Positions 17,301-49,240 of a DNA stretch of 64,000 nt are shown piece by piece. The number at the start of each line of letters is the position of its first letter. Positions within the stretch are counted from its first letter, which is position 1. Where the stretch lies: positions 88,100-152,099 of the forward strand of contig JACKLX010000010.1 of the NCBI GenBank assembly GCA_024235695.1. The letters are read 5' to 3'. Source of the DNA: Accumulibacter sp. Lineage in GTDB: Bacteria; Pseudomonadota; Gammaproteobacteria; Burkholderiales; Rhodocyclaceae. The position numbers and the translations under genes are program-made. A model generated the notes under the pieces. The model had not been told where the DNA came from and ran no database searches. It saw only the letters and a list, made by a program, of their open reading frames with translations.

Positions 17301-17800
17301 TCGTCGGCCGTCGGCAGTTCATCAAGACCGGTCTTGCCGGCAGCGTCTTGCTGTCGTTCGCGGGCTGGCTCAACGCCGCCGGATCGCGCCAGCTGAGCGA
17401 CGCCGAACGCGAGATGCTCGCGGCGGTGGTCAACGCGATGCTCGCCGGCGTCTTGCCAACCGAGAGTCGCGAACGACGCCGGCTGGTGACGCTGACCGTC
17501 AACGGCGTGGCGACCGCGGTCTCGGGTCTTTCCGCGGCGACCCAGAAAGAGATCGGCGAGTTGTTCGGCCTGCTGGTGATCGCGCCGGCGCGCCTGGTCC
17601 TGGCCGGGGTCGGCAAGCCCTGGCGCGAGGCCAGTGTCGGCGAGGTCAGCGAATTCCTGCAGGCGTGGCGATCGAGCCGCCTGAACCTGCTGCAGAGCGC
17701 CTACGGGGCGCTCCACGATCTGACGTTCGGCGCCTGGTACGGGCGACCCGGCAGCTGGCAGGCGATCAGCTATCCTGGCCCGCCCAGGGGGTATTTCTGA
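17297..17800 (+). CDS. Tat-signal small subunit next to GMC oxidoreductase
   Basis: A 167-residue protein beginning MIVGRRQFIKTGLAG, a twin-arginine signal, then a hydrophobic stretch and AAG. The remainder is helical with LSDAEREMLAAVVNAMLAG, like gluconate-2-dehydrogenase subunit 3-type partners of GMC enzymes. The Tat signal suggests export of a folded complex, with the GMC subunit carried along. It overlaps the aldehyde dehydrogenase end by 4 nt, and its TGA overlaps the GMC start by 1 nt. Confidence 0.65.
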   Translation: MIVGRRQFIKTGLAGSVLLSFAGWLNAAGSRQLSDAEREMLAAVVNAMLAGVLPTESRERRRLVTLTVNGVATAVSGLSAATQKEIGELFGLLVIAPARLVLAGVGKPWREASVGEVSEFLQAWRSSRLNLLQSAYGALHDLTFGAWYGRPGSWQAISYPGPPRGYF

Positions 17801-24014: not shown

Positions 24015-25205
24015 ATGACGGACGTTGAAAGGCGATGGAACTGGATGGCCTGGGGACTGTGGCTGATCACCATCGCGGTGATCGCCGCGATGGTGATCGG
24101 CAGTCCGCTCGAGCGCAGCATGACTCCCGGATATCACCATGCGGTCGCGAATTGGTGGGCCCGGCAGCCGGTCTACACGGGTCCCACCGGCTTCAATTAC
24201 CTGCCGATATTCCTTTCCTTGTTCGGCTTGTTTGCCGGCTTGCCGATCGTCGCGGGCGAGCTGCTCTGGCGAGCTGTCGCTGTCGTCGGCCTTTACGCGG
24301 GTCTTTGGCGGTATTGTGGCGTATTGGCGGTTGGCGACCGGCAGCGGGCGTTTGCGGTCATCACCGCATTGTCCCTGCCGCTTTGTTTCAGTGCACTGCG
24401 CAACGGCCAATCGAGCGCACAGCTGGCGGCGTGTCTCGTCCTGGCCGCCTGGTGTTTGCATCGGCAGCGTTGCTGGTGGGCGACGCTGTGGCTTTCCCTG
24501 GCGCTGGTTTGCAAGCCTCTGGGTTTGCCGGCAATCGGTCTGGCGGTGATGGCATTCCCCGGCCTTTGGTGGCGTATGGCAATCGGCGTCGCGGTCGTTC
24601 TGGTCGGGCCCTTTCTCTTCGTCCCGCCAGATTATGCGACCGGCCTCTACGTCGATTTCGCCAACAACCTCGCGCAGTGCCTGGATCCCGGCGGTCGCAC
24701 CTTCGCCGACCTCAATGGCGTGCTGAGGCCTTTCGGCTTGACCCTTGACGGGATGCCGTCGCTGCTTGTACGCGTTGCCGCCGGCCTGGCCATGGCCGCG
24801 GCGTGCTGGTTCACGCGCCGGCTTGCCTGCCAGATCGATCGTGCGCTGCTCTGGCTCGGCTTTACCGGCATCTACATCATGCTCTTCACACCGATGAACG
24901 AGGCCAACAGCTACGTGATGCTGGCGCCGGCGCTGGCGCTCTGGGCCTGGCGCTATCTTGAACAGGGCGCAACGCGAACCTTCCGCGTGTTCGTGGCGTT
25001 GTGCGTGACGATGATGTTCCTGCCGGACCTGGTCGGGCTGGCGATCGGCAAGCAGGGCGGGCACGAGTTCGGCAAGTTCTGGAATCCGCTGATGACCCTT
25101 GCCTTTCTGGCAATCCTGGCCTGGCGGATGCGCTGTTCCTACCGCGAATTACAAGGACGAGGGACGCACGGTGAGCAAGCGCCAATCTGGAATCTGGCGC
25201 GTTGA
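24015..25205 (+). CDS. DUF2029 / GT87-type membrane glycosyltransferase
   Basis: A 396-residue polytopic protein with about 9-11 hydrophobic segments and a short loop (GFNYLPIFLSLFGLFAGLPI) typical of the GT87/DUF2029 family, which uses polyprenyl-phosphate mannose donors in known members. KPLGLPAIGLAVMAF and NEANSYVMLAPALALWAWRY are further family-like segments. The substrate is unknown. It precedes the LtaS-like gene by about 300 nt on the same strand, and both may act on envelope glycans. Confidence 0.7.
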   Translation: MTDVERRWNWMAWGLWLITIAVIAAMVIGSPLERSMTPGYHHAVANWWARQPVYTGPTGFNYLPIFLSLFGLFAGLPIVAGELLWRAVAVVGLYAGLWRYCGVLAVGDRQRAFAVITALSLPLCFSALRNGQSSAQLAACLVLAAWCLHRQRCWWATLWLSLALVCKPLGLPAIGLAVMAFPGLWWRMAIGVAVVLVGPFLFVPPDYATGLYVDFANNLAQCLDPGGRTFADLNGVLRPFGLTLDGMPSLLVRVAAGLAMAAACWFTRRLACQIDRALLWLGFTGIYIMLFTPMNEANSYVMLAPALALWAWRYLEQGATRTFRVFVALCVTMMFLPDLVGLAIGKQGGHEFGKFWNPLMTLAFLAILAWRMRCSYRELQGRGTHGEQAPIWNLAR

Positions 25206-35421: not shown

Positions 35422-35910
35422 TCGCTGTTCAGCGCACGGCGGGCGCGTGGTCTTGGCTGGCCGCGGCCAAGGGGCAATGACCAGGTGGGCGGCAGAGGCG
35501 GCAGCCGCCGAGCGGGCGAAGGTTCATCGGGGAGGTGTGGGATTCTGCGGGAGGAGAGGGGAGAAGCGTCGTATGCTGTGCCATCGGGCGCGATTATACA
35601 CTCGCGCCGCGTGGCCATTCCGCATCGCCAGGCGCGTCGGGGGCCGGCGGCCGGGGCCGTACAGCGCCGGAGCCGGTCGGGTGCCGGACCACCCGGCGGG
35701 CTGGACGGCTGCGCCGCCGTGCAACCGCTGGTCGACGGTCGGCGATGGCCTGAAGGCAGAGGCTGACATCGCCGCGATCACGCGGCGTTGGCCCAATGCT
35801 GACGCCGGAAAAAGACTTGCGCGCGGGCCGATCAGGCGCAGAAAATGGCCACTCGCACGCCGGTTCCTTAGGCGCATGATTTGCCGGCTCTGACCGAGAG
35901 AGGCTGGTCC
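35422..35910. other. 489-bp divergent region between the arn operon and cas3
   Basis: No gene is supported. It contains a TATAAT on the minus strand at 35593-35598 for the arn operon. No clear cas3 promoter or palindromic operator is visible. Confidence 0.4.
35593..35598 (-). promoter_or_regulatory. -10 element for the arn operon
   Basis: A consensus TATAAT read on the minus strand lies about 170 nt upstream of arnT. No consensus -35 and no PmrA-type direct repeat were found. Confidence 0.4.
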
Positions 35911-38130
35911 ATGACTGCCGCAGCACATGTCCGCCAACTCGCCAACGGCGAATTCGCGATCCACTCGCTCGACGACCACCTGTTGTCTGTTGCCCGGCTG
36001 GCCGGACATCTTGCCGAGGCGATCCAGGGCGGGCCGTGGGCTGAGCTAGCCGGGGTCTGGCACGACCTTGGCAAGTACCAGCCGACGTTCCAGAGGTACA
36101 TCGCTTCTGCCAGTGGCCTGGATGCGCACATCGAGGCGCCTGGCAGGGTCAAGCACGCGATCGCTGGCGCGATTCATGCCTGCCGCCAGTCAGGACCGTA
36201 CGGCCAGCTGCTCGCCTACCTGATCGCCGGTCACCACGCCGGTTTGCCTGACTGGCATCCGGGCGAGGCTGCCGGCGCCGCGCTTTCCCAGGAACTGCAG
36301 GATGAGCAGGCGACACTGGCGCAAGCGACAGCCGGTGGCGCGCCACAGGCTATCCTCGCGCCGGGCATTGCGCTCAGCAGACCGCCGATTCGCAACGCCG
36401 ACCAACTCCACTTCTGGCTGCGAATGCTCTTTTCCTGCCTGGTCGATGCCGACTTTCTCGACACCGAAGCGTTCATGGCCGATGCGCGAGGCGAAATGCG
36501 CGGCGGCTACCCCGAGATCACCGTGCTCCGCGAGGCGTTCGAGCGCTACATGGCGCGCCGTTTCACGGTCGCTGACACGCCGGTCAAGCGCCTGCGCGGC
36601 GAGATTCTCGCCAGTTGCGTTGCGCGTGCCGCGCAAGCACCAGGGCTGTTCAGCCTGACCGTACCGACCGGTGGCGGCAAGACGCTGGCTTCGCTCGGCT
36701 TTGCCCTGCATCACGCACAAGGACACGGCTTGCGACGCATCATCTACGTGATTCCGTACACCAGCATCATCGAGCAGACAGCCGACGTCTTCCGGGAACT
36801 CTTCGAGGGTATCGACCCTTCGCCGGTCATCGAACACCACAGCAACATCGAAGCGGAAAACGAAACGGCCAAGAGCCGCACGGCGTGCGAAAACTGGGAC
36901 GCGCCGATCGTCGTGACGACCAACGTCCAGTTTTTCGAATCGCTCTACGCCGCGCGGCCCTCGCGTTGTCGAAAGTTGCACAACATCGCCAACAGCGTTG
37001 TCGTTCTCGACGAGGCGCAGCTGTTGCCGCCCGAGCATCTGGCGCCAATTCTCGACGCCCTGCGGCAACTGATCGAGCACTATCGGGTAACGGTCGTACT
37101 GTCCACCGCGACCCAGCCGGAGCTGCACAAGACGCGGTCCGATGCCTTCGGTCGTGTGCGATTGCCGGGATTGGGCGAAGCGCGCGAGCTCGCACCCGAT
37201 CCGGCACGGCTCTACCGGCAACTCGAGCGGGTCAGCGTCAGCCTGCCCGACTCATCGCGGCAACGCTGCAGTTGGCAAGCGATCGCCGGCGAGCTCGCAG
37301 AGCAACAGCGTGTGCTGTGCATCGTCAACCGTCGAGACGATGCAGCGACGCTCTGGGGCCTCCTGCCAGAGGGCGCGTTGCACCTGTCGGCTCGCATGTG
37401 CGGCGCACATCGTGCCGAGGTGATTGCGGAAGTCCGCCGTCGCCTGATCGCTCTGGAGCCGGTGCGGGTGGTCAGCACCCAACTCGTCGAAGCTGGCGTC
37501 GATCTCGATTTCCCGGTCGTCTATCGCGCGATGGCCGGCCTTGATTCGATCGCCCAGGCGGCGGGTCGCTGCAATCGCGAGGGTTGTCTGCCGCAGAAAG
37601 GACGGGTGGTCGTTTTCAATCCGCCGAAGCCGTCGCCAAGCGGGCTGTTGCTGAAAGCGGAACAAGCCGCGGAAGTCGTGCTGTCGGGCGCATCTGGTGA
37701 GCCCCTCACCCCCCTACAATTCGGGCGTTACTTCGATTGTTTCTACGGCGGGGTGAACAGCTACGACAAGGAACGGGTCATGGAACTGCTGCAGCGCGAT
37801 GCCGCCAGCGGGCAAGTACAATTCCGCTCGGCGGCGCAGGGGTTTCGTTTGATTGCCGACGAGGGGCAGCGGCAGGTGATGGTCAGCTGGGGAGAGGGGC
37901 ATTCCCTGGTCGAGCAGCTCAAGCAGATTGGCCCAAACCGCGATTTGATGCGCAAGCTGCAACGTCATACGGTTTCACTCTACGAGTATCAATGGAAGCG
38001 GTTGCTCGCAAGCGGCGATCTGGAGTGGCATGGAGACTTTCTGATTCAGAAAAGTGACGCGCTGTACGACCCCGTGCTCGGGTTGTTGCCGGATGTGCCG
38101 GATTACGCGCCAGCCAGCCTGGTTGTGTGA
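35911..38130 (+). CDS. cas3: CRISPR-associated helicase/nuclease Cas3, type I-C
   Basis: A 739-residue single-chain Cas3. The N-terminal HD nuclease has VWHDLGKY (HD at 51-52), KHAIAGA (His 82) and AGHHAG (108-109). The superfamily 2 helicase has Walker A PTGGGKT (252-258), DEAQ as motif II (about 367), STATQ as motif III, and VSTQLVEAGVDLDF with QAAGRCNREG as motifs V and VI. DEAQ in place of DEAH is common in this family. It degrades target DNA recruited by Cascade. The start is ATG 35911 after GAGAGG. It heads the cas operon and its stop overlaps the first possible cas5 start. Confidence 0.95.
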   Translation: MTAAAHVRQLANGEFAIHSLDDHLLSVARLAGHLAEAIQGGPWAELAGVWHDLGKYQPTFQRYIASASGLDAHIEAPGRVKHAIAGAIHACRQSGPYGQLLAYLIAGHHAGLPDWHPGEAAGAALSQELQDEQATLAQATAGGAPQAILAPGIALSRPPIRNADQLHFWLRMLFSCLVDADFLDTEAFMADARGEMRGGYPEITVLREAFERYMARRFTVADTPVKRLRGEILASCVARAAQAPGLFSLTVPTGGGKTLASLGFALHHAQGHGLRRIIYVIPYTSIIEQTADVFRELFEGIDPSPVIEHHSNIEAENETAKSRTACENWDAPIVVTTNVQFFESLYAARPSRCRKLHNIANSVVVLDEAQLLPPEHLAPILDALRQLIEHYRVTVVLSTATQPELHKTRSDAFGRVRLPGLGEARELAPDPARLYRQLERVSVSLPDSSRQRCSWQAIAGELAEQQRVLCIVNRRDDAATLWGLLPEGALHLSARMCGAHRAEVIAEVRRRLIALEPVRVVSTQLVEAGVDLDFPVVYRAMAGLDSIAQAAGRCNREGCLPQKGRVVVFNPPKPSPSGLLLKAEQAAEVVLSGASGEPLTPLQFGRYFDCFYGGVNSYDKERVMELLQRDAASGQVQFRSAAQGFRLIADEGQRQVMVSWGEGHSLVEQLKQIGPNRDLMRKLQRHTVSLYEYQWKRLLASGDLEWHGDFLIQKSDALYDPVLGLLPDVPDYAPASLVV

Positions 38131-38141
38131 AAGGAGTGGCT

Positions 38142-38876
38142 TTGAAAGCTTATTGTCTTGAAGTAAGTGGCGACTTCGCGTGCTTCACCCGTCCGGAAAT
38201 GAAGGTCGAGCGGGTGAGCTACGACGTCATGACGCCTTCGGCGGCACGGGCGATTTTCGAATCGATTCTCTGGAAGCCAGCGATTCGCTGGCGGGTGATC
38301 AGAATCGACGTGCTGAAACCGATCCACTGGATTTCCCTTCGTCGCAACGAGGTTGGCGCCGTCGTGCCGATCAACAGCGTCAAGGGCGCGATGAACAGGG
38401 GTAGCGGTGAACTCGGGATGTACGTCGAAGACGTTCGTCAACAGCGCGCGGGACTATTCCTGCGCGACGTGGCTTACCGAATCCATGCCGTCTTTGAACT
38501 TTGCGACGGCTCGCGCCATCGGTCGAACTTTCCTTACCTGGTCAGGCAGCCGATCAACGATCCGGACGAGCAGCGCGCTGCCGACGAGGCCAACAACGTG
38601 CCCAAGTTCATGGCCATGTTCGAGCGTCGGGCACGCAAGGGCCAGTGCTTCAACCAGCCGTATCTGGGTTGCCGCGAGTTCGCCTGCGATTTTCGTCTGG
38701 TCGAAGACGTCCAGGCGGTGTCCGCGCCGATCGCCGAAAGCCGCGACCTCGGCTGGATGCTGCACGATCTCGATTTCGACAACCCGGCCGATCCGCAGCC
38801 GCGCTTCTTTCGCGCCGCGGTGAAGAGTGGTGTCCTCGCAGTCCCCGACTGGAGCGACCCGGAGGTGAGACGATGA
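38142..38876 (+). CDS. cas5: Cas5d/Cas5c, crRNA endonuclease of type I-C
   Basis: A 244-residue RAMP protein starting MKAYCLEVSGDFACFTRPEM and continuing ERVSYDVMTPSAARAIFESILWKPAIRW, the type I-C Cas5 beginning. In type I-C this protein replaces Cas6 and cuts the repeat transcript at the base of its hairpin. TTG 38142 is chosen because AAGGAG ends 5 nt before it and it matches the family start; GTG 38127 would add five residues. Its stop overlaps the cas8 start (ATGA). Confidence 0.92.
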   Translation: MKAYCLEVSGDFACFTRPEMKVERVSYDVMTPSAARAIFESILWKPAIRWRVIRIDVLKPIHWISLRRNEVGAVVPINSVKGAMNRGSGELGMYVEDVRQQRAGLFLRDVAYRIHAVFELCDGSRHRSNFPYLVRQPINDPDEQRAADEANNVPKFMAMFERRARKGQCFNQPYLGCREFACDFRLVEDVQAVSAPIAESRDLGWMLHDLDFDNPADPQPRFFRAAVKSGVLAVPDWSDPEVRR

Positions 38877-40630
38877 TTCTCCAGGCGCTCAACGACTACT
38901 ACGCGCGCAAGGCGGCGGATCCTCGAACGAGCCTGGCTCCCGAGGGGTTTGAAGTCAAGGCGATTCCGTTCGTGCTGGTGATCGACGCGGACGGCCGCCT
39001 GCTGCAGTTGGCGGATCGGCGGGAAGGCGTGGGCAAGAAGAAGGAGGCCAAAGCCGAACTGGTCCCACAGGGCGCAAAGAAGACTTCGGGCGTGGCAGCA
39101 AATCTGCTGTGGGACACTGCCGAGTACGTTCTCGGCGTCGACACCCGCGGCAAACCCGACCGCGTTGCCGAGCAACATCAGGCCTTCGTCAAGCGCTTTG
39201 TGGAAGCCTTTGGCGGAGATCCCGAGGACGCAGGCCTTCGCGCCGTCAAAGCCTTCCTGGAAAGGCATGTGCCGTCGACCCGCGAGGATCTGTCCGCGCA
39301 TCCAGCCGGCGCGGAAATCATGGAAACGAACCCACTGCTCAGTTTTCAGTTGCAGACGGACGCGGTACTTGTTTGTCAGCGGCCAGCCGTGGTCGCCGCG
39401 CTGCAGGCAGGGCAAGCCGGGCAGGGCGCGCCGGCTGACGGCATCTGCCTCGTCTCCGGCGAGGCAGATGTGATTGAACGGCTGCATCCATCAATCAAGG
39501 GTGTCTGGGGTGCGCAGACCTCGGGGGCCAATATCGTTTCATTCAACCTCGATGCCTTCAGCTCGTACGGCAAGACGCAGAGTTTCAACGCACCGGTCGG
39601 CAGCCGGGCGGCTTTCGCCTATACCACGGCGTTGAACCACTTGCTCAGCAAGGGCTCCCGGCAACGAATCCAGGTCGGCGACGCGTCGACGGTGTTCTGG
39701 GCGGAAAAGGAAAGCGGTGCACCGTTCGAGACGGCTTTTCTGGATTTCCTCGACGCGCGCCGGGACGATTGCGATCCGGACCGGGGAACGCAGGCGGTGG
39801 CGAGCCTCTACGCCTGCGTGCGCGACGGGCGCCCGTTCACCACCGACGACCTGCAGCGGTTTCACGTGCTGGGTTTGTCGCCAAACGCCGCGCGTATCGC
39901 CATCCGCTTCTGGCACGTGGCGAGCATCCGCGAGTTGGCGACCGCCTTCCTGCGTCACTTCGGCGACCTTGAAATCGATCGGCCGGGTTACGAAGCGGCG
40001 GCACCACTGTCGCTGTACCGTCTTCTGAGCAGCACCGCGCTGCAGGGCAAGGCCGAGAACATCGCCCCCAACCTCGGCGGCGACGTCATGCGCGCCATCC
40101 TCAAAGCGCTGCCCTATCCGGAAACCTTGATGCAGGGCGCGCTGAGGCGCATTCGCGCCGAGCGGGAAGTGGGTTTCCCGCGTGCCGCCCTACTCAAGGC
40201 TTATCTCATTCGCAATTGCCAAGACAAGGAGATCACCGTGTCGCTCAATCCCGAAAATATCGATCCCGGCTACTGCCTCGGACGCTTGTTCGCCGCCCTG
40301 GAGCGTGTCCAGGAACGCGCTCAGGGCAACCTCAACGCCAGCATTCGCGATCGCTACTACGGCGCTTTCTCGACGACACCGACGACCGTCCTGCCGATGT
40401 TGATGCGCCTGAAAAACCATCATCTTGCCAAACTTCCCAATCGTGGCGAGGCCGTCAATCTGGAGAAGCTCCTTGCCGAGATCGTCGACGGGCTGGCCGA
40501 TGTGCCGGCTCGTCTGAGCCTGACCGAGCAGTGCCGCTTCGCCGTCGGCTACTACCACCAGCGTCAGTCCTTCTTCAATCGGGCCGACGCTCAGACCGCC
40601 GATCAACCCGCCACCTCTCTTGCTGAATAA
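38873..40630 (+). CDS. cas8c: Cas8c, large subunit of type I-C Cascade
   Basis: A 585-residue protein of the Csd1/Cas8c family: MILQALNDYYARKAADP at the start, LLWDTAEYVLGVDTRGKPDR, SFNLDAFSSYGKTQSFNAPVG, HFGDLEIDRP and, near the end, the small-subunit-like helical region FAVGYYHQRQSFFNR. Cas8c recognises the PAM; an internal start that makes Cas11 is known for this family and could exist here (not resolved). It overlaps cas5 by 4 nt. Confidence 0.93.
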   Translation: MILQALNDYYARKAADPRTSLAPEGFEVKAIPFVLVIDADGRLLQLADRREGVGKKKEAKAELVPQGAKKTSGVAANLLWDTAEYVLGVDTRGKPDRVAEQHQAFVKRFVEAFGGDPEDAGLRAVKAFLERHVPSTREDLSAHPAGAEIMETNPLLSFQLQTDAVLVCQRPAVVAALQAGQAGQGAPADGICLVSGEADVIERLHPSIKGVWGAQTSGANIVSFNLDAFSSYGKTQSFNAPVGSRAAFAYTTALNHLLSKGSRQRIQVGDASTVFWAEKESGAPFETAFLDFLDARRDDCDPDRGTQAVASLYACVRDGRPFTTDDLQRFHVLGLSPNAARIAIRFWHVASIRELATAFLRHFGDLEIDRPGYEAAAPLSLYRLLSSTALQGKAENIAPNLGGDVMRAILKALPYPETLMQGALRRIRAEREVGFPRAALLKAYLIRNCQDKEITVSLNPENIDPGYCLGRLFAALERVQERAQGNLNASIRDRYYGAFSTTPTTVLPMLMRLKNHHLAKLPNRGEAVNLEKLLAEIVDGLADVPARLSLTEQCRFAVGYYHQRQSFFNRADAQTADQPATSLAE

Positions 40631-40639
40631 GGAACGACC

Positions 40640-41542
40640 ATGAGCCTCAACCACCGCTACGATTTCGTGCTGCTCTTCGACGTCAGGGATGGTAATCCGA
40701 ACGGCGATCCCGACGCCGGCAACCTGCCGCGACTTGATGCCGAAACCGGCCACGGACTGGTGACTGACGTCTGCATCAAGCGCAAGGTGCGTAACTACGT
40801 CGGCATCGTCCATGGCGAGCAACCGCCCTACGAGATCTACGTCAAGGAAAAAGCGATTCTCAACCGGCAGCATGAGCGCGCCTACGAAGGCATCGGCAAG
40901 AAAGATCTGCTGAAAGGTGACGACAAGAAGCGCAAGGGCGGCGACGCCGTCGATGAAGCACGCCAGTGGATGTGCCGTAATTTCTTCGACGTACGCACCT
41001 TCGGCGCGGTGATGTCTACCGGCGTGAACTGCGGGCAGGTCCGCGGCCCCGTTCAGTTGACCTTTGCGCGCTCGGTTTCGCCGGTGGTGGCGCTTGAGCA
41101 CTCGATCACGCGCATGGCCGTCGCGACCGAAGCCGAAGCCGAGAAGCAGAGCGGCGACAACCGCACGATGGGGCGGAAGTTCACCATCCCCTACGGGCTG
41201 TACCGTGCCCATGGTTTTGTTTCCGCGCATCTTGCACGGCAAACGGGTTTCGGTGAAACGGACCTGGAGCTGTTTTTCAAGGCGCTGGAAAGCATGTTCG
41301 AGGAAGATCGCTCCGCGGCTCGCGGTGAAATGGCGAACCGTGGGCTCTACGTTTTTCGACATGACTCCGAGCTTGGCAACGCACCCGCGCACGCCTTGTT
41401 CGATCGTCTGTCCGTCGAACGTCAGGGCGACGACGTGGTACGCGACTTCGGCGCCTATGCCGTGCGCTTCGATGGTGATGAAGTCGCCGTCGGCCAGTCC
41501 GTCGCCGCTTCGACAGGTGTGACCATGATCAGGCGGTGCTGA
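40640..41542 (+). CDS. cas7: Cas7c/Csd2, Cascade backbone
   Basis: A 300-residue RAMP protein: [22 protein letters not shown] at the start and [28 protein letters not shown] in the middle. These are the standard Csd2 blocks. Several copies coat the crRNA spacer. AAGGAACGACC precedes ATG 40640. The final segment VTMIRRC is followed not by cas4, as usual, but by about 670 bp holding a DUF433 antitoxin module. Confidence 0.94.
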
Positions 41543-41816
41543 ACATCGGACACCGGCGCTTGACTGACGACGTCACAGGACAACAAGCAAGTTGTGGCCG
41601 CGCGACGGCCGGCGAGCGCTGCCGTATGCGTTCGCCCGGATAAGGGCATGGACGCATGGCAAGCTGCATGGCGGCAAGGTCTTGGCGAGGCACACGTCGC
41701 CGTGTCGGGCATGGCGTTTCGTTCGCCGAGGACTGGCGAAGCTGGGCGGCTGATGGCAAGCAGAGCTGACAGCCTCACCCGGGGGATTGTTCCGGTTCCT
41801 GACAAGGAGTCAGACA
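41543..41816. other. Spacer region between cas7 and the DUF433 gene
   Basis: 274 nt with no supported gene. A 78-codon open frame (41594-41830) has no family-like features. It is the left part of an interruption of the cas operon. Confidence 0.45.
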
Positions 41817-42218
41817 ATGGACTGGCATGAGCGCATTGTTTCCGATCCGGAAACGCTGTTCGGCAAACCTCGCATCAAGGGGACGCGCATCGGCGTCGAA
41901 CTGATCCTCGATCTGATGGGGTCGGGCTGGAGCGAGGCGCAGATCCTGGCAAGCTACCCGCACTTGCGGGCGGCAGACCTGCAGGCCGTTCTTGCCTTTG
42001 CTCGAGACTGCCTGAAAGACGAAACCTGCATCATGCAGGCGGCAATTGTTGCCCCCGCCACCGGCTATCCTCTGTTTCCGGATTCAGCCGATAGTCATCG
42101 AGGGCGTCCTGGCCGCGGCCTTGCGCGCACTTGCCGAGTACCCGACGGTTCGTTTGCCGTAATCAGCCCCAATGATGTCCGCTTGCGACCACCCGCCGCT
42201 GTCTACGCAAATGGCTGA
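41817..42218 (+). CDS. DUF433 (VapB-like) antitoxin with run-on C-terminus, inside the cas operon
   Basis: The first 75 or so residues are a complete DUF433 protein: MDWHERIVSDPETLFGKPRI, KGTRIGVELILDLMGSGWS, ILASYPHLRAADLQAVLAFA. DUF433 proteins are the antitoxin partners of DUF5615 PIN-like toxins. After about residue 76 the sequence loses family likeness and runs on for nearly 60 residues through toxin remnant sequence, because the usual antitoxin stop is gone. ATG 41817 has AAGGAG 7 nt upstream, so the gene is translatable. It ends inside the cas4 start region. Confidence 0.72.
   Translation: MDWHERIVSDPETLFGKPRIKGTRIGVELILDLMGSGWSEAQILASYPHLRAADLQAVLAFARDCLKDETCIMQAAIVAPATGYPLFPDSADSHRGRPGRGLARTCRVPDGSFAVISPNDVRLRPPAAVYANG
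42058..42207 (+). pseudogene. C-terminal remnant of a DUF5615-like toxin
   Basis: In the frame of 42058-42162 the sequence reads PPAILCFRIQPIVIE followed by GVLAAALRALAEYPTVR. In the next frame it continues FAVISPNDVRLRPP. Joined by one frameshift, this resembles the C-terminal third of DUF5615 toxins (hydrophobic LR strand, helix, then VVxxxRVRxRP). The N-terminal two thirds with the acidic active site are missing. Family assignment is by eye and tentative. Confidence 0.4.
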
Positions 42219-42843
42219 GACGTCGGAGCCCATCCCGGTCTCGGCCATCCAGCACTGGTGCTACTGCCCGCGCCAGTGCCTGCTGATCCACGCCGAGCAG
42301 GCCTTTGCGGAGAACGTGCATACCATGCGTGGGCAAGCGGTGCATGAGCGCGTTGATCAGGCCGGTGTGGAAACGCGGGCGGGCGTTCGCACCGCCCGCG
42401 CAGTGCCGCTGTGGAGCGACCGGCTGGGACTGGTCGGCAAGGCCGATGTCGTCGAGTTTCTCGCCGACGGGACGCCGTATCCGGTCGAGTACAAGCACGG
42501 TCGCAAGGGCAGGGCGGCCAAGGGCGTGCATGATCATCTGCAACTCGCTGCGCAAGCTCTCTGTCTCGAAGAAATGACCGGCAAGGGCGTCGCCGTCGGG
42601 GCCATCTATCACGCTACCTCGCATCGTCGCCGAGAAGTCACCATCGGCAGTGTACTTCGAACACAGGTGGCAGAGACGGTAGTCGCCATCCGCCAGGCGC
42701 TGGCTGCGGGTACTTTGCCGCCACCGGTCAACGACGAACGCTGCCGCGAGTGCTCGCTGATCGACCTCTGTCAGCCTGCACCGCTGGCCGCGCAGGCACG
42801 TCAGAAAGAACTCGCTTGCCGACTCTTCGTGGCGGACGATTGA
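42211..42843 (+). CDS. cas4: Cas4 nuclease, type I-C adaptation
   Basis: A 210-residue RecB-family Cas4: IPVSAIQHWCYCPRQCLLIH at the start, KADVVEF and YPVEYKHGR as nuclease motifs, and the Fe-S cysteines in CPRQC and CRECSLIDLC. It trims prespacers and selects the PAM end with Cas1-Cas2. ATG 42211 matches the usual family start; ATG 42172 would add 13 residues that overlap the toxin remnant. Neither has a clear ribosome binding site. GTG of cas1 follows directly. Confidence 0.92.
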   Translation: MAETSEPIPVSAIQHWCYCPRQCLLIHAEQAFAENVHTMRGQAVHERVDQAGVETRAGVRTARAVPLWSDRLGLVGKADVVEFLADGTPYPVEYKHGRKGRAAKGVHDHLQLAAQALCLEEMTGKGVAVGAIYHATSHRRREVTIGSVLRTQVAETVVAIRQALAAGTLPPPVNDERCRECSLIDLCQPAPLAAQARQKELACRLFVADD

Positions 42844-42844
42844 C

Positions 42845-43876
42845 GTGCAGACACTGCTCAACACGCTGTATGTCAGCACGCCGATGTCCTACCTGCATCT
42901 CGACAACGACACCGTGCGCGTCGAGGTGGAGCGCGAAACGAGGCTGCGCGTGCCCTTGCACCATCTCGGCGGCATCGTGCTGTTCGGCAACGTGCTGGTT
43001 TCGCCGGCGCTCATTCATCGTTTGGCAGACGACGGCAAGAGTCTGATTCTGCTCAGCGAACACGGGCGTTTCAAGGCGCGGATGGAAGGACCGACATCGG
43101 GGAACATCCTGCTGCGCCAGGCTCAACACGCCCGTGCGGCGGATCCCGCTTTCGCCCTGGCGATCGCCCGAGCCTTTGTCGCCGGAAAAGTGAAGAATAC
43201 CCGGCAGGTGCTCTTGCGTGGCGGGCGCGAGGCCAGGGATACTGAGGACAGCGCACGCCTGACACGGCGCGCCGATGACCTTGCCGCCTCGCTGCGCGCC
43301 CTGCCGGCGGCTGGCGATCTCGACACTGTACGCGGCCTCGAAGGCGAAGCGGCGCGTCAGTATTTTGCGGGTTTGAATCTGGTGCTTCGTCCCGAGTCGC
43401 GGGCGGTCTTCGCCATGGACGGCCGCAGTCGCCGGCCACCGCGGGACCGGATCAACGCATTGCTGTCCTTCCTCTACGCGATGCTGATGAACGATTGCCG
43501 CTCTGCCGTCGAGACGGTCGGCCTCGATCCTCAACTCGGCTTCCTGCATGCCGTCCGGCCCGGCCGCGCCGCCCTCGCGCTCGACCTGATGGAGGAATTC
43601 CGAGCCCTGGCCGATCGTCTGGCGCTGACCCTGATCAACCGCGGCCAGATCCAGAGCGGTGATTTCACCGAACACGATGGCGGTGCCGTGACGCTGGCCG
43701 ACGGAGGGCGCAAGACGGTGATCGTCGCCTGGCAGGAGAAGAAGCGGGAAGAACTTGCCCATCCATTGCTCCAGCAAGCGGTGCCGATCGGTCTGTTGCC
43801 CCTGCTTCAGGCTCGCTTCCTTGCGCGGACCCTGCGCGGTGAGATGGCGAGCTATCTTCCCTTCACGACGAGGTGA
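42845..43876 (+). CDS. cas1: Cas1 integrase, type I-C
   Basis: A 343-residue Cas1: [21 protein letters not shown] at the start and the metal site in [11 protein letters not shown] (Glu 166), [11 protein letters not shown] (His 235) and [10 protein letters not shown] (Asp 247, Glu 250). All expected catalytic residues are present. The start is GTG 42845, one base after the cas4 stop. The stop overlaps the first possible cas2 start. Confidence 0.95.
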
Positions 43877-43881
43877 ACCGC

Positions 43882-44172
43882 ATGCTGGTGATCGTTTGCT
43901 ATGACGTAAGTACCGAGACTCGCGAGGGGCGCCGCCGTTTGAGACGGGTCGCAAGGGTCTGCGAGGGCACCGGCCAGCGCGTACAGAAGTCGGTCTTCGA
44001 GTGCCAGGTCGACCGGATGCAGCTTGAGGAACTTGAGCGTCGACTGCTGGCGGAAATAAGAGTCGACGAGGATTGCCTACGCCTCTACCGCCTTGCCGAA
44101 ACACGCGGTTGTGAAGTTCGCGAGTACGGTCGTTTCCGTGCCCTCGACTACGATGCGCCCTTGCTGGTGTGA
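43882..44172 (+). CDS. cas2: Cas2, adaptation complex subunit
   Basis: A 96-residue Cas2: [41 protein letters not shown] and DCLRLYRL. The type I-C form has the conserved Asp in YDVST. ATG 43882 is preferred over GTG 43873 because it matches the family start and has GAGGTGA upstream. It is the last cas gene; the leader and array follow. Confidence 0.94.
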
Positions 44173-44363
44173 GCGGCGCTGCCGTGATGCGCGAACCGCC
44201 AGCGGCCGGCAATAGGCGGGAAGTTCGCGCGCCTTGCACGTCCTTGTTCTTGCATGGAAAATGGCGGACGTAACATCCTCACTTGCACGCAGCATCCCGT
44301 TCGCGTCGGGGTTCGCGCAATGCGACCCACAACCGCTGCGTGTACATACACTTGACGCGAACG
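44173..44363 (+). promoter_or_regulatory. CRISPR leader
   Basis: 191 nt between cas2 and the first repeat without a gene. A possible array promoter is TTGCAC (44234-44239), then 17 nt and GAAAAT. The orientation fits: repeats end in GATTGAAAC away from the leader, and degenerate repeats lie at the far end. Confidence 0.6.
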
Positions 44364-47275
44364 GACACGCTCCCCGGCGACGGGGAGCGAGGATTGAAAC
44401 GTCACGCCTCGAAAGGCTCGAAAGATATGCGGCTAGACACGCTCCCCGGCGACGGGGAGCGAGGATTGAAACACCTATCACCCTGTACAGTGTGCTAATT
44501 CAGCAGTTGACACGCTCCCCGGCGACGGGGAGCGAGGATTGAAACGGCGGCTTTGGCCGCTTCGACTTCGGCGGCTTTGGACACGCCCCCGGCGACGGGG
44601 AGCGAGGATTGAAACCAATTCTGGGGAAGCGGAAGCGGCCAAAGCCGTTGAGACACGCTCCCCGGCGACGGGGAGCGAGGATTGAAAACGCTGGTGCTAC
44701 GCTGACATCGCTGTGTCAGCTGCGGACACGCTCCCCGGCGACGGGGAGCGAGGATTGAAACAGCGTCGTTCGGTGGGATCATCGAAGCGCCGAAAGACAC
44801 GCTCCCCGGCGACGGGGAGCGAGGATTGAAACGCTATGCGAAAGGTACGCTTTTCGCCCCTCACGAGACACGCTCCCCGGCGACGGGGAGCGAGGATTGA
44901 AACCCGTCAATCGTCGCGATGGAGTTGGCCATCAGGACGACACGCTCCCCGGCGACGGGGAGCGAGGATTGAAACGCGTTAATCCGGGCGTCAAGGGTAT
45001 TTATACCCTGACACGCTCCCCGGCGACGGGGAGCGAGGATTGAAACATCATCGGATATTTGGTGGCGAGAGCCTTGCGCTGCGACACGCTCCCCGGCGAC
45101 GGGGAGCGAGGATTGAAACGGCCTTGGCCGAAGCGTCTTGATTGCACGCTGCCGACACGCTCCCCGGCGACGGGGAGCGAGGATTGAAAACCTTGGTGGC
45201 CATCGGGTACTTGATGGCAAGGCTTGACACGCTCCCCGGCGACGGGGAGCGAGGATTGAAACGACATAACATCATCCTCCATCAAGCTGGTAGCGCCGAC
45301 ACGCTCCCCGGCGACGGGGAGCGAGGATTGAAACTGATGTACATGTAACCTATTGATCTATAACACATGACACGCTCCCCGGCGACGGGGAGCGAGGATT
45401 GAAACAACTCAAGGGTAATACCCTTTGTCAATGAATCCACTGACACGCTCCCCGGCGACGGGGAGCGAGGATTGAAACCGAGCGATCGGATTGGGCAAAC
45501 CATGACCACAGCGACACGCTCCCCGGCGACGGGGAGCGAGGATTGAAACGGATTGCACAGCTCTTTTAGCCGAAAACGCGGTCGACACGCTCCCCGGCGA
45601 CGGGGAGCGAGGATTGAAACCAGCCGCTCGGCACAGTTCCTCTGGCGGGCGACGACACGCTCCCCGGCGACGGGGAGCGAGGATTGAAACTATGGGCAGC
45701 GGCTGGTCTGCGTTGGACAGATAGAGACACGCTCCCCGGCGACGGGGAGCGAGGATTGAAACGATTAGCGCCTTGGCGGCGGCGCGGTTGCTCAGCGGAC
45801 ACGCTCCCCGGCGACGGGGAGCGAGGATTGAAAACCAGCAGGGACTCGCAACGCAGCAGGCCGGCGGGGGGACACGCTCCCCGGCGACGGGGAGCGAGGA
45901 TTGAAACATGGCCTTGCGGTCGGCGACCGAATGCCTGGCAAGACACGCTCCCCGGCGACGGGGAGCGAGGATTGAAACCTGCGGCGATAGTTGGCACAAA
46001 TGGACAGGCATCGACACGCTCCCCGGCGACGGGGGAGCGAGGATTGAAACTTCCAGGCGTCCGGGTTGGTGGCCTGCAGGTAGAGGACACGCTCCCCGGC
46101 GACGGGGAGCGAGGATTGAAACGCCACCGCCGGCAAGACGCCGCTTGCTGGAATTGGCGACACGCTCCCCGGCGACGGGGAGCGAGGATTGAAACAAGCC
46201 GAATGCGCTGTTATATGTGCCAGAGGTCAGGGACACGCTCCCCGGCGACGGGGAGCGAGGATTGAAAACCCCGGGCGGAGTCGCGGAATATTGATGCGCT
46301 GGACACGCTCCCCGGCGACGGGGAGCGAGGATTGAAAACTCATCGCTGGTGACGGGCTTTCGGCTTTGGCGACGACACGCTCCCCGGCGACGGGGAGCGA
46401 GGATTGAAACCTGGTAGAACCACTCTTCCGCGCCTGGCGACGAAGACACGCTCCCCGGCGACGGGGAGCGAGGATTGAAACGTCGCCAGCTGGTCGGTCG
46501 GCGGCAGCGAAATCAAGACACGCCCCGGCGACGGGGAGCGAGGATTGAAACAGCCTGGGGCGCAACGCTGATCGATGACGCTGACGACACGCTCCCCGGC
46601 GACGGGGAGCGAGGATTGAAACGAGTTCGGCGGCGGTGGCGTTGCTCATGCGCGCCAGACACGCTCCCCGGCGACGGGGAGCGAGGGATTGAAACGGCAG
46701 GCCGTGCTCGGAAATCGTCTCCGCATAGGGGACACGCTCCCCGGCGACGGGGAGCGAGGATTGAAACTCGGCGGTCTTGGCCTGGGCTTCGACGCGCTTG
46801 ACGGACACGCTCCCCGGCGACGGGGAGCGAGGATTGAAACCGCTCGCCACCACCTGGTGCGCGATGCTGGCGGCGAGACACGCTCCCCGGCGACGGGGAG
46901 CGAGGATTGAAACCATTGCCGCCCTACGGCGGTAATCGCGGCGACGGGGACACGCTCCCCGGCGACGGGGAGCGAGGATTGAAACCTCGAACGTTACGGC
47001 GTCAGTGTCTGCGCCTCAGTGACACGCTCCCCGGCGACGGGGAGCGAGGATGAAAACGCAGCCCGTAAGGCGTTGATGCTGCATTACGCGAGGACACGCT
47101 CCCCGGCGACGGGGAGCGAGGATTGAAAACTTTTCCGGCGTCTCGCCAGGCTCGTAGCGCCACACCGACACGCTCCCCGGCGACGGGGGAGCGAGGATTG
47201 AAACGGCAATGTGCTTGATTCCGCCGACCGCTGATGGGGACACGCTCCCCGGCGACGGGGAGCGAGGATTGAAAC
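44364..47275 (+). CRISPR. Type I-C CRISPR array, 41 repeats and 40 spacers
   Basis: The repeat is 37 nt: GACACGCTCCCCGGCGACGG then GGAGCGAGGATTGAAAC. It folds into an 8-bp stem (GCTCCCCG with CGGGGAGC) closed by a GCGA tetraloop, leaving AGGATTGAAAC as the expected 5' handle after Cas5 cleavage. Spacers are 33-37 nt and the period is 69-74 nt. Variants are mostly one- or two-base indels in G or C runs (repeats 4, 24, 31, 33, 40) or an extra A near the end (5, 12, 21, 27, 39); repeat 38 has a rearranged end (GATGAAAAC). There is no gap within the array. The last repeat ends exactly where a broken toxin gene begins. Confidence 0.97.
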
Positions 47276-47510
47276 TGCACATGGCCGCCGGTGCCGGCGT
47301 GCTTGAGGTCGTCGAGAACGATGCCGGCGGCACATACCGGGCTGTCTACACGGTGAAGTACGCGGAAGCGGTGTTCGTCCTGCACTGCTTCCAGAAGTAG
47401 AGCAAGAGGGGATCGCCACACCAAAGTCAGATATGGACATCATTCGCGCTCGGCTGAAAGTGGCCGACGCATTGGCACTGGAGCTACGAAATGCAAAAAC
47501 GAATCGTTGA
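47276..47510 (+). pseudogene. HigB/Gp49-like toxin, truncated by the array and frameshifted
   Basis: Directly after the last repeat the frame reads GAGVLEVVENDAGGTYRAVYTV, then VFVLHCFQK and a stop (TAG 47398). Family members continue FQKKSKRGIATPK. Here AAG to TAG and a missing base in the G run break the frame. After a -1 shift it continues GIATPKSDMDIIRARLKVAD to TGA 47508-47510. The N-terminal half is absent. Three independent lesions make it dead. The antitoxin start lies inside its 3' end, as in intact HigBA pairs. Confidence 0.72.
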
Positions 47511-47826
47511 AGGCGTCGAGGTTCAGCGCAGCTCGGGCAACGTCTTTGCCGACCTTAAACTGCCCGATGCCGAAAAACTCAAGATCAAGACCGGCTTGGT
47601 GGTCGAGATTAGGAAGGCGATGCGCGCCCTTGGGCTGACTCAACAAGAGGCGGCGAAACGCATGGGCATCCCGCAACCGAAGGTGTCGGGCATGATGCGT
47701 GGCGACTTCACAAATCTGTCCGAGCGCAAGCTGATGGACTGCTTGAACCGCCTCGGCTACGACATCGAGATCAAAGTGCGGCCGGCCGCCGAGCCGGTCG
47801 GACACCTGACGCTCGCGGTCGCTTGA
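47491..47826 (+). CDS. HigA-like XRE-family antitoxin
   Basis: A 111-residue protein of the COG5606 type. An N-terminal arm (SGNVFADLKLPDAEKLKIKT) is followed by an HTH with MRALGLTQQEAAKRMGIPQPKVSGMMRGDF (about 46-75) and the typical LNRLGYDIEIKVRP ending. It normally neutralises a HigB/Gp49 toxin and represses its own promoter. The toxin here is broken, so it is either a relic or an anti-addiction gene. The frame is intact. Confidence 0.8.
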   Translation: MQKRIVEGVEVQRSSGNVFADLKLPDAEKLKIKTGLVVEIRKAMRALGLTQQEAAKRMGIPQPKVSGMMRGDFTNLSERKLMDCLNRLGYDIEIKVRPAAEPVGHLTLAVA

Positions 47827-47840
47827 CCAGATGCCAACCG

Positions 47841-48197
47841 ATGGCAGTCCGCATTACTGATGAAGAGTGGGACAAACGGTCTCCGGAGAATTTCGAGACG
47901 CATTCGCTGCTGCGTGCCGTCGATGGCGTGCACGAACTGCGCGCCGATCTCAACGATGGCGGACACGCCACCCCGCCGCAGCTTCGCACAGACCTGCTGC
48001 AGCTGCACCAACTGGCAATGGCCGTCATCAGCTTGCTTCCTGGGTCGGCGTTTGTCCGGGCAACAACGAGTCGGCGGGAAAACGAAAGTCGGGGCGCGTG
48101 CGCAAGGGCAATCTCTACCTTCGCCGACTTCTCTGCGAGTTCGCGCACGCCGCCAGCCGCACCAAATCAGCGTTCCAGTCCAAGTTCCAGTCGCTGA
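47841..48197 (+). pseudogene. Small unknown protein truncated by an IS110 fragment
   Basis: Residues 1-63 look like a real soluble protein: MAVRITDEEWDKRSPENFET then LRTDLLQLHQLAMAVI. From about position 48029 the DNA is IS110 transposase sequence read in a wrong frame, giving an Arg/Ser-rich tail. The native C-terminus is lost. I do not recognise a named family. It starts 14 nt after the antitoxin stop. Confidence 0.5.
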
Positions 48198-48391
48198 TCA
48201 TTCGCCGCGGCTACAAACGAGCCATCGTCGCGCTGGCTCACAAAATGTTGCGCACCATCTTCTTCATGCTCAAGCGTGGCGAACACTACCGGGATTCCGC
48301 CATCAACTATGAGCAGCTTTCCGTGCAGCGTAACGCTTCTCGCTGGATCAAGGCGCTGACTCGCTTCGGCTTCATCCCCGCCGCCGCCTGA
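48029..48391 (+). mobile_element. C-terminal fragment of an IS110-family transposase
   Basis: The frame ending TGA 48389-48391 reads LASWVGVCPGNNESAGKRKS, GNLYLRRLLCEFAHAASRTK, KRAIVALAHKMLRTIFFMLK, the Transposase_20 domain of IS110 elements with its conserved Ser in the NNESAG segment. The N-terminal DEDD domain is missing. No terminal repeats are seen, as expected for IS110. Confidence 0.85.
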
Positions 48392-48558
48392 TTCCCGACA
48401 AGCCCTTGTTATGACCCACGGCGGTCAGAGCTTCGCGCGTCTATCAACTGACTTCCTTCACATTAACAGCACGGCGCTTCGACGGCCATCGCTTCAGGGC
48501 CTGCAATGCCGAAGCCGCCAAGGGCATAGAGCGGCGCCATGTGTATCAAGCTCGAAAG

Positions 48559-48583
48559 GGCGACGGGGAGCGAGGATTTAAGC
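48559..48583 (+). repeat. Orphan CRISPR repeat, 3' part
   Basis: 25 nt matching the last 25 bases of the array repeat at 23 positions (GGCGACGGGGAGCGAGGATT, then TAAGC for GAAAC). The 5' 12 bases are replaced. It lies 1.28 kb beyond the array in the same orientation. Confidence 0.88.
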
Positions 48584-48619
48584 GAGAACTTGCAGCAACG
48601 GTCCGCTCACTGTGTCCGG

Positions 48620-48629
48620 CACACGCTCC
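48620..48629 (+). repeat. Second fossil CRISPR repeat, 5' end only
   Basis: CACACGCTCC matches the first ten bases of the repeat at nine positions. It begins 73 nt after the virtual start of the orphan repeat, so the intervening segment 48584-48619 is exactly 36 nt, a normal spacer length. The match is short; the spacing is what supports it. Confidence 0.5.
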
Positions 48630-48687
48630 GTCCGCACTGCCGGGAGGTTTGCCTTGTTGCGATCGGTGACGCGCTTCCAGCGGCCTG

Positions 48688-48882
48688 CTACGCGAAGCTG
48701 TCGATCCGACTGCCGAGATGCGGCGGGTTGCTGCGGACCACGTTTGCGGCGGCCTCGACGAGCTGCAGGGCATTTTGTGACTGAATGTCGAGGGCTTTCT
48801 TGAGCACGGCGGTTTGCACGGCGTCGGCCGTTCTGCTCTGACTGATTTCTGTCGCCATGGCGGCGATCGCCGGTACGTCCAT
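48688..48882 (-). CDS. YjfB-family putative motility protein
   Basis: A 64-residue protein: MDVPAIAAMATEISQSRTAD then AVQTAVLKKALDIQSQNALQ and a short tail. This matches the YjfB_motility family of small flagellar-regulon proteins. CAGGAGATC precedes ATG 48882. A sigma-28-like promoter lies 42 nt upstream. The longer frame to 49353 is not needed. Confidence 0.75.
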   Translation of the reverse strand: MDVPAIAAMATEISQSRTADAVQTAVLKKALDIQSQNALQLVEAAANVVRSNPPHLGSRIDSFA

Positions 48883-49240
48883 GATCTCCTGGCCTCCCGT
48901 GATTTCCTGCGTCCGAAGCCTGGTATACGGCAGTCCTGGCCGGTTCTTGAGCTTCGTTGAGCGCACGGTCGCGATATCGAAGGCCGAGGCGTGGCGGCGC
49001 AGGCCGGGGCCACCGGCATGGCCGCGGTGAGCTTGCCGAGCGTTTCGCCGGCTTGTCGCATCGGCGGGTCTTGTAGTACCGTCGCCGTGACGCGACAGGG
49101 TTCGTGCCGCAAGAATTGTTTTGACTTGACCCGCGGCGGCCGTTTCCGGTCCGACACAGCAACTCCCGGCGCACGGGCGCACCCTGGCGTCTGCCGGTTT
49201 TCTAGATCGGGCCGAAGTGGCCCCCAACGAAGGACTGACG
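48883..49240. other. Divergent region between yjfB and the binding-protein gene
   Basis: 358 nt without a supported gene. It contains the sigma-28-like promoter for yjfB at 48924-48950. Beyond that no hairpin, RNA or repeat is evident. Confidence 0.45.
48924..48950 (-). promoter_or_regulatory. Sigma-28 (FliA)-type promoter for yjfB
   Basis: Read on the minus strand: TCAAGAAC, 11 nt, GCCGTATA. The FliA consensus is TAAAGTTT-N11-GCCGATAA, so spacing is exact and the key TCAAG and GCCG bases are present. Confidence 0.6.

Follow-up and report, generated by a model that had tools for sequence, protein, structure and literature searches.

In Shigella, IS insertions in CRISPR–Cas loci were reportedly described by Chen et al. 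in 2019, in a paper cited by PMC8616872. As far as that account goes, the locus described here is similar in that mobile elements break it up, and differs in holding a decayed mosaic in the array trailer; the whole-IS version is found in a relative of the same genus (G026; see below). The distal end of an array is marked by its terminal repeat, which in S. agalactiae CRISPR1 is degenerate predominantly on its 3′ side (PMC4466440). Two aspects of that array recur here: degeneracy falls mainly on the 3′ end of the terminal repeat and spares its 5′ part, and the repeat marks both the distal boundary and a last spacer that had previously been missed. Unlike that repeat, the terminal repeat of the present locus is recognisable over 10 nt only, and is separated from the live array by 1.3 kb of foreign DNA. 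Part of this foreign DNA has a described counterpart in the pair of Gp49 and HTH_37 genes described for Tn3 transposons (PMC7157771). The segment 48559–48629, perhaps continuing to 48656, is very probably the original trailer end of a type I-C array, stranded by a mosaic of mobile DNA.

The window, i.e., the whole stretch of 64,000 nucleotides that was analysed, comes from contig C10 of a 3.83 Mb Accumulibacter draft genome (32 contigs, 84% complete), and was compared with 28 genomes of the genus, its own included. All features given below are on the + strand unless stated otherwise. Type I-C cas genes occupy 35881–44172 and have Cas3c, Cas5c, Cas8c, Cas7c, Cas4c, Cas1c, and Cas2c as their best PADLOC profiles: cas3 (35881–38130), cas5c (38127–38876), cas8c (within the ORF 38501–40630), cas7c (40640–41542), cas4 (42172–42843), cas1 (42845–43876), and cas2 (43873–44172). 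The stretch 35878–44220 was compared with G026 (L116/L117); cas5-cas8-cas7 (38337–41544) is 91% identical, the remaining cas genes are 81–87% identical, and the flanking chromosome is 79–85% identical, with the G026 locus lying at a different site. This pattern of identity suggests transfer or recombination of cas genes.

The live array (44364–47275) has 41 repeats and 40 spacers, with the cas and leader side on the left and the trailer on the right; its spacers are 32–36 nt long and its periods 69–74 nt. Twelve of the 41 repeats are off consensus, mostly through 1–2 nt indels in short runs, which are perhaps long-read consensus errors. Two observations concern individual spacers. The neighbouring spacers 3 and 4 (44546–44651) share a 16-nt reverse-complement identity, as if they came from one repeated or inverted source. 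Spacer 39 (47131–47166) matches positions 17670–17691 of L068, from G005, at 21 of 22 nt, making the latter a possible protospacer.

The stranded tail consists of three parts. The 25 nt at 48559–48583 match repeat positions 13–37 at 23 positions, as the sequence-only reading had claimed in calling them the 3′ two thirds of a repeat. They are followed by a 36-nt spacer (48584–48619), the oldest of the array, and by 10 nt (48620–48629) that match repeat positions 1–10 at nine and represent the 5′ end of a degenerate terminal repeat. The period of 73 nt and the spacer length of 36 nt are both within the habit of the live array, so that the descriptions of the 10 nt as a repeat start one period on and of the segment between as a normal spacer hold. 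Allowing up to three mismatches, the 25-mer occurs 39 times in the window, namely at its own position and in 38 live repeats, and shuffling (100 shuffles) gives an expectation of zero. Elsewhere, the closest 25-nt match has seven mismatches, both across the window background (121,146 positions) and across the fetched loci of relatives (778,328 positions, some of them overlapping). For the 10-nt piece, matches of at least 9/10 occur at 3 per 121,146 window positions and 51 per 778,328 positions of relatives; taken over the six starts that give a spacer of 33–38 nt, P is 1.5e-4 at the window rate and about 4e-4 at the relatives' rate. This is the comparison with chance that had been proposed for the second match, which is better than chance would be expected to give. 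Chance resemblance, considered as a candidate for either match, is rejected on the match statistics.

An assembly artefact would be another way to dismiss the tail, and the off-consensus repeats of the live array, with their short indels, do hint at long-read errors. The outer flanks, however, are both colinear with one contig of a relative (G021), a comparison that the inner junctions lie outside, and with a best background of seven mismatches chance is not credible for the 25-nt match; that the tail is either accident or artefact is scarcely believable. It might instead have come here independently and by chance, as a piece of another array or a translocated repeat, and the place of the CRISPR locus does vary in the genus (in G026, the I-C locus lies between the homologues of window 50603 and 50745). 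The tail nevertheless shares strand and repeat allele with the live array, is in correct phase with it, lies on its trailer side, and shows degeneracy of the terminal type. Across the draft genome (32 contigs, 84% complete), no second array with the same repeat core was found: all 40 forward matches of a 20-nt core are inside the live array or the fragment, and the single other match, with three mismatches, is on contig C7. An independent origin is thus very unlikely. Repeat identity, spacer length and period, and the adjoining I-C cas genes all place the tail in the type I-C array.

The way in which arrays end in the genus gives a further reason to place the boundary at the tail. Copies of the repeat were found in 5 of the 28 genomes (the window's own, G008, G009, G021, and G026), and three sibling arrays (G021, G026, and G008) could be read to their end, the solitary repeat of G009 not being counted as an array. 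All three last repeats are degenerate, with 9 mismatches in G026, 3 in G008, and 9 in G021; positions 19–37 hold 9, 2, and 7 of these, respectively, and the first 18 nt hold 0, 1, and 2. In the window, by comparison, the last live repeat (47239–47275) has no mismatch to the consensus and is thus unlike a terminal repeat; therefore, the true end of the live array seems to have been lost. On the simple reading, 47275 would not be the original end of the array and 48620 would be the start of its original terminal repeat. The 3′ degeneracy seen in three of three siblings agrees with the piece at 48620, of which only 10 nt can be judged: beyond these, 48620–48656 is at chance level (22 of 37 positions mismatched over the full length), and a diverged remainder of the repeat may run to 48656. 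The second match had been taken as another damaged repeat; its derivation from a repeat stands, and it is better read as a normal degenerate terminal repeat. Match statistics, phase, and the pattern of degenerate terminal repeats together bear out the earlier proposal that the array once reached this place (about 48630–48656) and that foreign DNA parts its tail from the rest.

The foreign DNA is 1,283 nt long (47276–48558), since the last live repeat stops at 47275 and the fragment starts at 48559. Its largest piece (47286–48030) is, by homology and Pfam, an internal fragment of a Tn3-family toxin–antitoxin module. It is 95.0–95.6% identical to L036 and L050, from two genomes of the genus, and 87.9% and 87.4% identical to two plasmid Tn3 elements, in which the same genes adjoin a recombinase and the Tn3 transposase. 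Pfam identifies the toxin (Gp49) and the antitoxin (HTH_37, 47491–47826), and the right part of the piece contains the start of the gene that follows the antitoxin. The presence of both domains assigns it to the Tn3-family modules, and the toxin-first order of Gp49 and HTH_37 agrees with the published description (PMC7157771). Unlike the modules described there, the piece is without tnpR, tnpA, and element ends, and its toxin gene is truncated at the 5′ end on the array side and broken by a stop and a frameshift.

A complete IS110 transposase has DEDD and serine domains. The second piece (48031–48466) covers the 3′ part of an IS110-family element up to its right end; it has a Pfam Transposase_20 match and copies in relatives of up to 93% identity. 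The domain and a right end common to the copies in the genus tie it to the family; unlike a full IS110, it is without the left part and the transposase N-terminus, and the Transposase_20 part alone is present in place of a complete transposase. The right end reads CTTCACATTAA in the window and TTTCACATTAA in most relatives that reach it. Among 17 loci, which are part of the places listed for IS110 homology in relatives, homology ends exactly at 48466 in 8, 1–7 bases beyond it in 3, and short of it in 6. The third piece (48467–48558, 92 nt) resembles intergenic DNA upstream of restriction- or defence-type genes in two relatives, where no IS110 lies alongside: G004 (80% over 105 nt; upstream of a gene whose Schlafen/AlbA_2 match falls just short of cut-off) and G008 (73% over 98 nt; upstream of an HsdM-type methylase gene). 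This piece had no match among plasmids, and across 199 genomes of the family it was found in 10 others, all as short, weak matches.

At the left junction, 10 nt (47276–47285) are outside every strong higB alignment seen, and are perhaps what is left of a lost spacer, or else higB sequence that has diverged. Homology to higB starts at 47286 in three of four alignments and at 47289 in the fourth. In the left-junction searches, none of the 15 matches listed for the first, and in the second none with E <1e-6 apart from the window itself, begins before query base 11 (47286). The stretch had no match as 20- and 22-mers among viral and genome contigs. A junction 28-mer had no match among genome contigs either, in a set that may leave out the window's own record. 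Toxin-gene homology starts no more than 10 nt past the end of the live array, which could indicate that a spacer recombined with its own protospacer in the Tn3 toxin gene and so joined the array to that gene. The 10 nt aligned to no higB among the matches listed, though, and in four homologues the bases just before the corresponding point differ from TTC, the PAM of type I-C systems. Seven short matches start before base 11; the six inspected reach 26–29 of 36 positions, compared with at most 25 in 30 shuffles, but they were preselected for their similarity, and TTC precedes none of them. Such a recombination is very improbable.

The right junction (48558/48559) falls within a repeat, and no mobile-element end was seen there. 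The G004 alignment of the 92-nt piece extends nine bases into the repeat fragment, and a short identity (GACGGG) may, to judge from this overlap, have served the join. No target duplication around the foreign DNA was seen by eye. Within the foreign DNA, the only recognised element end (48466) does not abut the repeat, unlike what a simple transposon insertion would give. Every piece has homologues in genomes of the genus at sites where the repeat search found no array. Of the earlier claim that 47276–48558 was inserted, the part that stands is that foreign DNA parts the tail; the DNA is made of at least three fused fragments, and no duplication supports a single insertion. A stranded trailer would have arisen as follows. 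The original trailer would have comprised a repeat, now reduced to its 3′ two thirds, then the oldest spacer, and last the degenerate terminal repeat. Near this trailer, mobile DNA would have entered the array, and later deletions and illegitimate joins would have produced the 1,283-nt mosaic of Tn3 toxin–antitoxin fragment, IS110 right end, and 92 nt, at the cost of 12 nt on the left side of one repeat and of some number of repeat–spacer units. We infer this order of events and deletions from the pieces that remain.

The relatives provide both the synteny of the locus and less decayed forms. A YjfB-type gene (48688–48876, − strand; Pfam YjfB_motility) flanks the trailer and serves as the synteny anchor. 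Relatives without an array that carry the sequence of 48540–48640 had been named as evidence that would count against a fossil tail. With 48559–49200 as query, 15 of the 28 genomes gave matches (own included), the earliest of which starts at 48677, apart from the own locus and one other live repeat; the stretch 48559–48676 is absent from the matches of all relatives in the genus, and no such array-less carrier appeared (E ≤0.001). G021 has, on one contig, the window's left flank as far as 35615 and its right flank from 48688 onward; between these, two decayed repeats accompany pieces of the cas3, cas1, and cas2 genes, and the spacer of G021 is not shared with the window. The distance from the last repeat to yjfB is about 3.3 kb in G021 and 58 nt in the window, and by this comparison the right flank is rearranged in one or the other. 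In G026, the site of the window's array holds about 340 nt and no repeat copy.

The I-C array of G026 has a clean insertion at the same array position. Its last spacer holds an IS21-type element with GGCATGAC, the 8-bp target duplication, on each side; IstB is clear, and the 512-aa partner matches Mu-transpos_C_2, with rve below cut-off. By eye, the split spacer consists of 12 nt, the 8-nt duplication, and 16 nt, which gives 36 nt, a normal spacer size. The element has both the intact ends and the target duplication of a simple transposon insertion, and the terminal repeat has come to lie 3,145 nt past the preceding one. This anatomy shows how a terminal repeat gets stranded in the genus, of which the window is a more decayed outcome. 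Two further loci deserve mention. In G008 (L118 on C54, reverse complement 330–898), a 569-nt stretch stands between two repeats instead of a spacer; it contains a 148-aa ORF with weak DUF6290 similarity, Antitox_RHH below cut-off, and no transposase match. In G009 (L119 on C8, 5251–5287), a solitary repeat has five mismatches, and the sequence before it looks by eye like a cas3 remnant, perhaps another stage of decay.

With up to three mismatches allowed, the fossil spacer was found in its own genome alone among 28 genomes of the genus and 395 of the family. The hoped-for strain, in which an unbroken array would end near 48630, did not emerge, and the lack of an uninterrupted ancestor and of a second copy of the spacer in the genomes searched counts against the reading as a stranded trailer. 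So do the bare junction at 48558/48559, the shortness of the second match, the different spacing of the right flank in G021, and the draft state of the assembly. The fossil spacer is not shared with the sibling spacers compared (10 from G026, 6 from G008, and 1 from G021, a set without the G026 spacer split by the IS and without the 569-nt G008 stretch). Exact 20- and 21-mers of the spacer had no match among viral contigs, and blastn with 48574–48650 against phages and plasmids gave 4 and 8 records, respectively, all weak and partial (best E 2 and 0.6). The proposed search of the 36-nt segment against spacers of relatives and phages therefore returned nothing convincing, and no target for it was found.

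CreA and CreR are crRNA-like regulatory RNAs, processed into a small RNA whose seed matches a cas or toxin promoter. The kept order of partial repeat, spacer, and partial repeat would suit a separate functional mini-array of this kind, regulating cas genes or a toxin by a partial spacer match. In the masked window, the best spacer match flanked by TTC is at 25081 (22/36, seed 9/11); among 100 shuffled spacers, 3 do as well overall and 24 have at least 9 matching seed positions, and the match is not called a target here. The region upstream of cas3 and the leader have no good match (best seeds 7/11 and 8/11) and no TTC before the best three matches of each, so that a seed match to a cas or toxin promoter of the CreA/CreR type was found neither there nor in the window. 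The fragment, moreover, sits beyond the array trailer and not beside cas3, its spacer recurs in no relative searched, and its repeat has lost the left stem arm. On folding of 48535–48640, 189 of 200 shuffles were at least as good, compared with a z of −5.3 for an intact repeat. A regulatory mini-array is extremely unlikely. With that stem arm gone, processed crRNA is probably not made from the stranded unit, to go by its sequence and predicted fold.

New spacers enter an array at its leader end, and here 2.9 kb separate that end from the last live repeat. What happens at the trailer therefore only post-dates the units that it touched, and the hope that the boundary and the old spacer would date it falls away, because acquisition at the leader gives no order relative to the 40 live spacers.

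An event of this kind is ordinary and already known, and the window is a new instance of it. A broader proposal, that mobile DNA lands repeatedly at trailer ends in the genus because the oldest spacers are under no selection, and that stranded repeats record decay, is unlikely; in its strongest form, the stranded unit would still be expressed as a crRNA-like RNA. If it is true, stranded terminal repeats such as those of the window and G026 would be a general, countable record of array decay. For annotation, an array finder is expected to stop at 47275 as the trailer, and so to miss the oldest spacer and the true boundary; a perfect last repeat may serve as a sign that the end of an array is missing. 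The window, G026, G021, and G009 form a small series of decay stages within one I-C repeat family and one genus, and the locus records how arrays decay.
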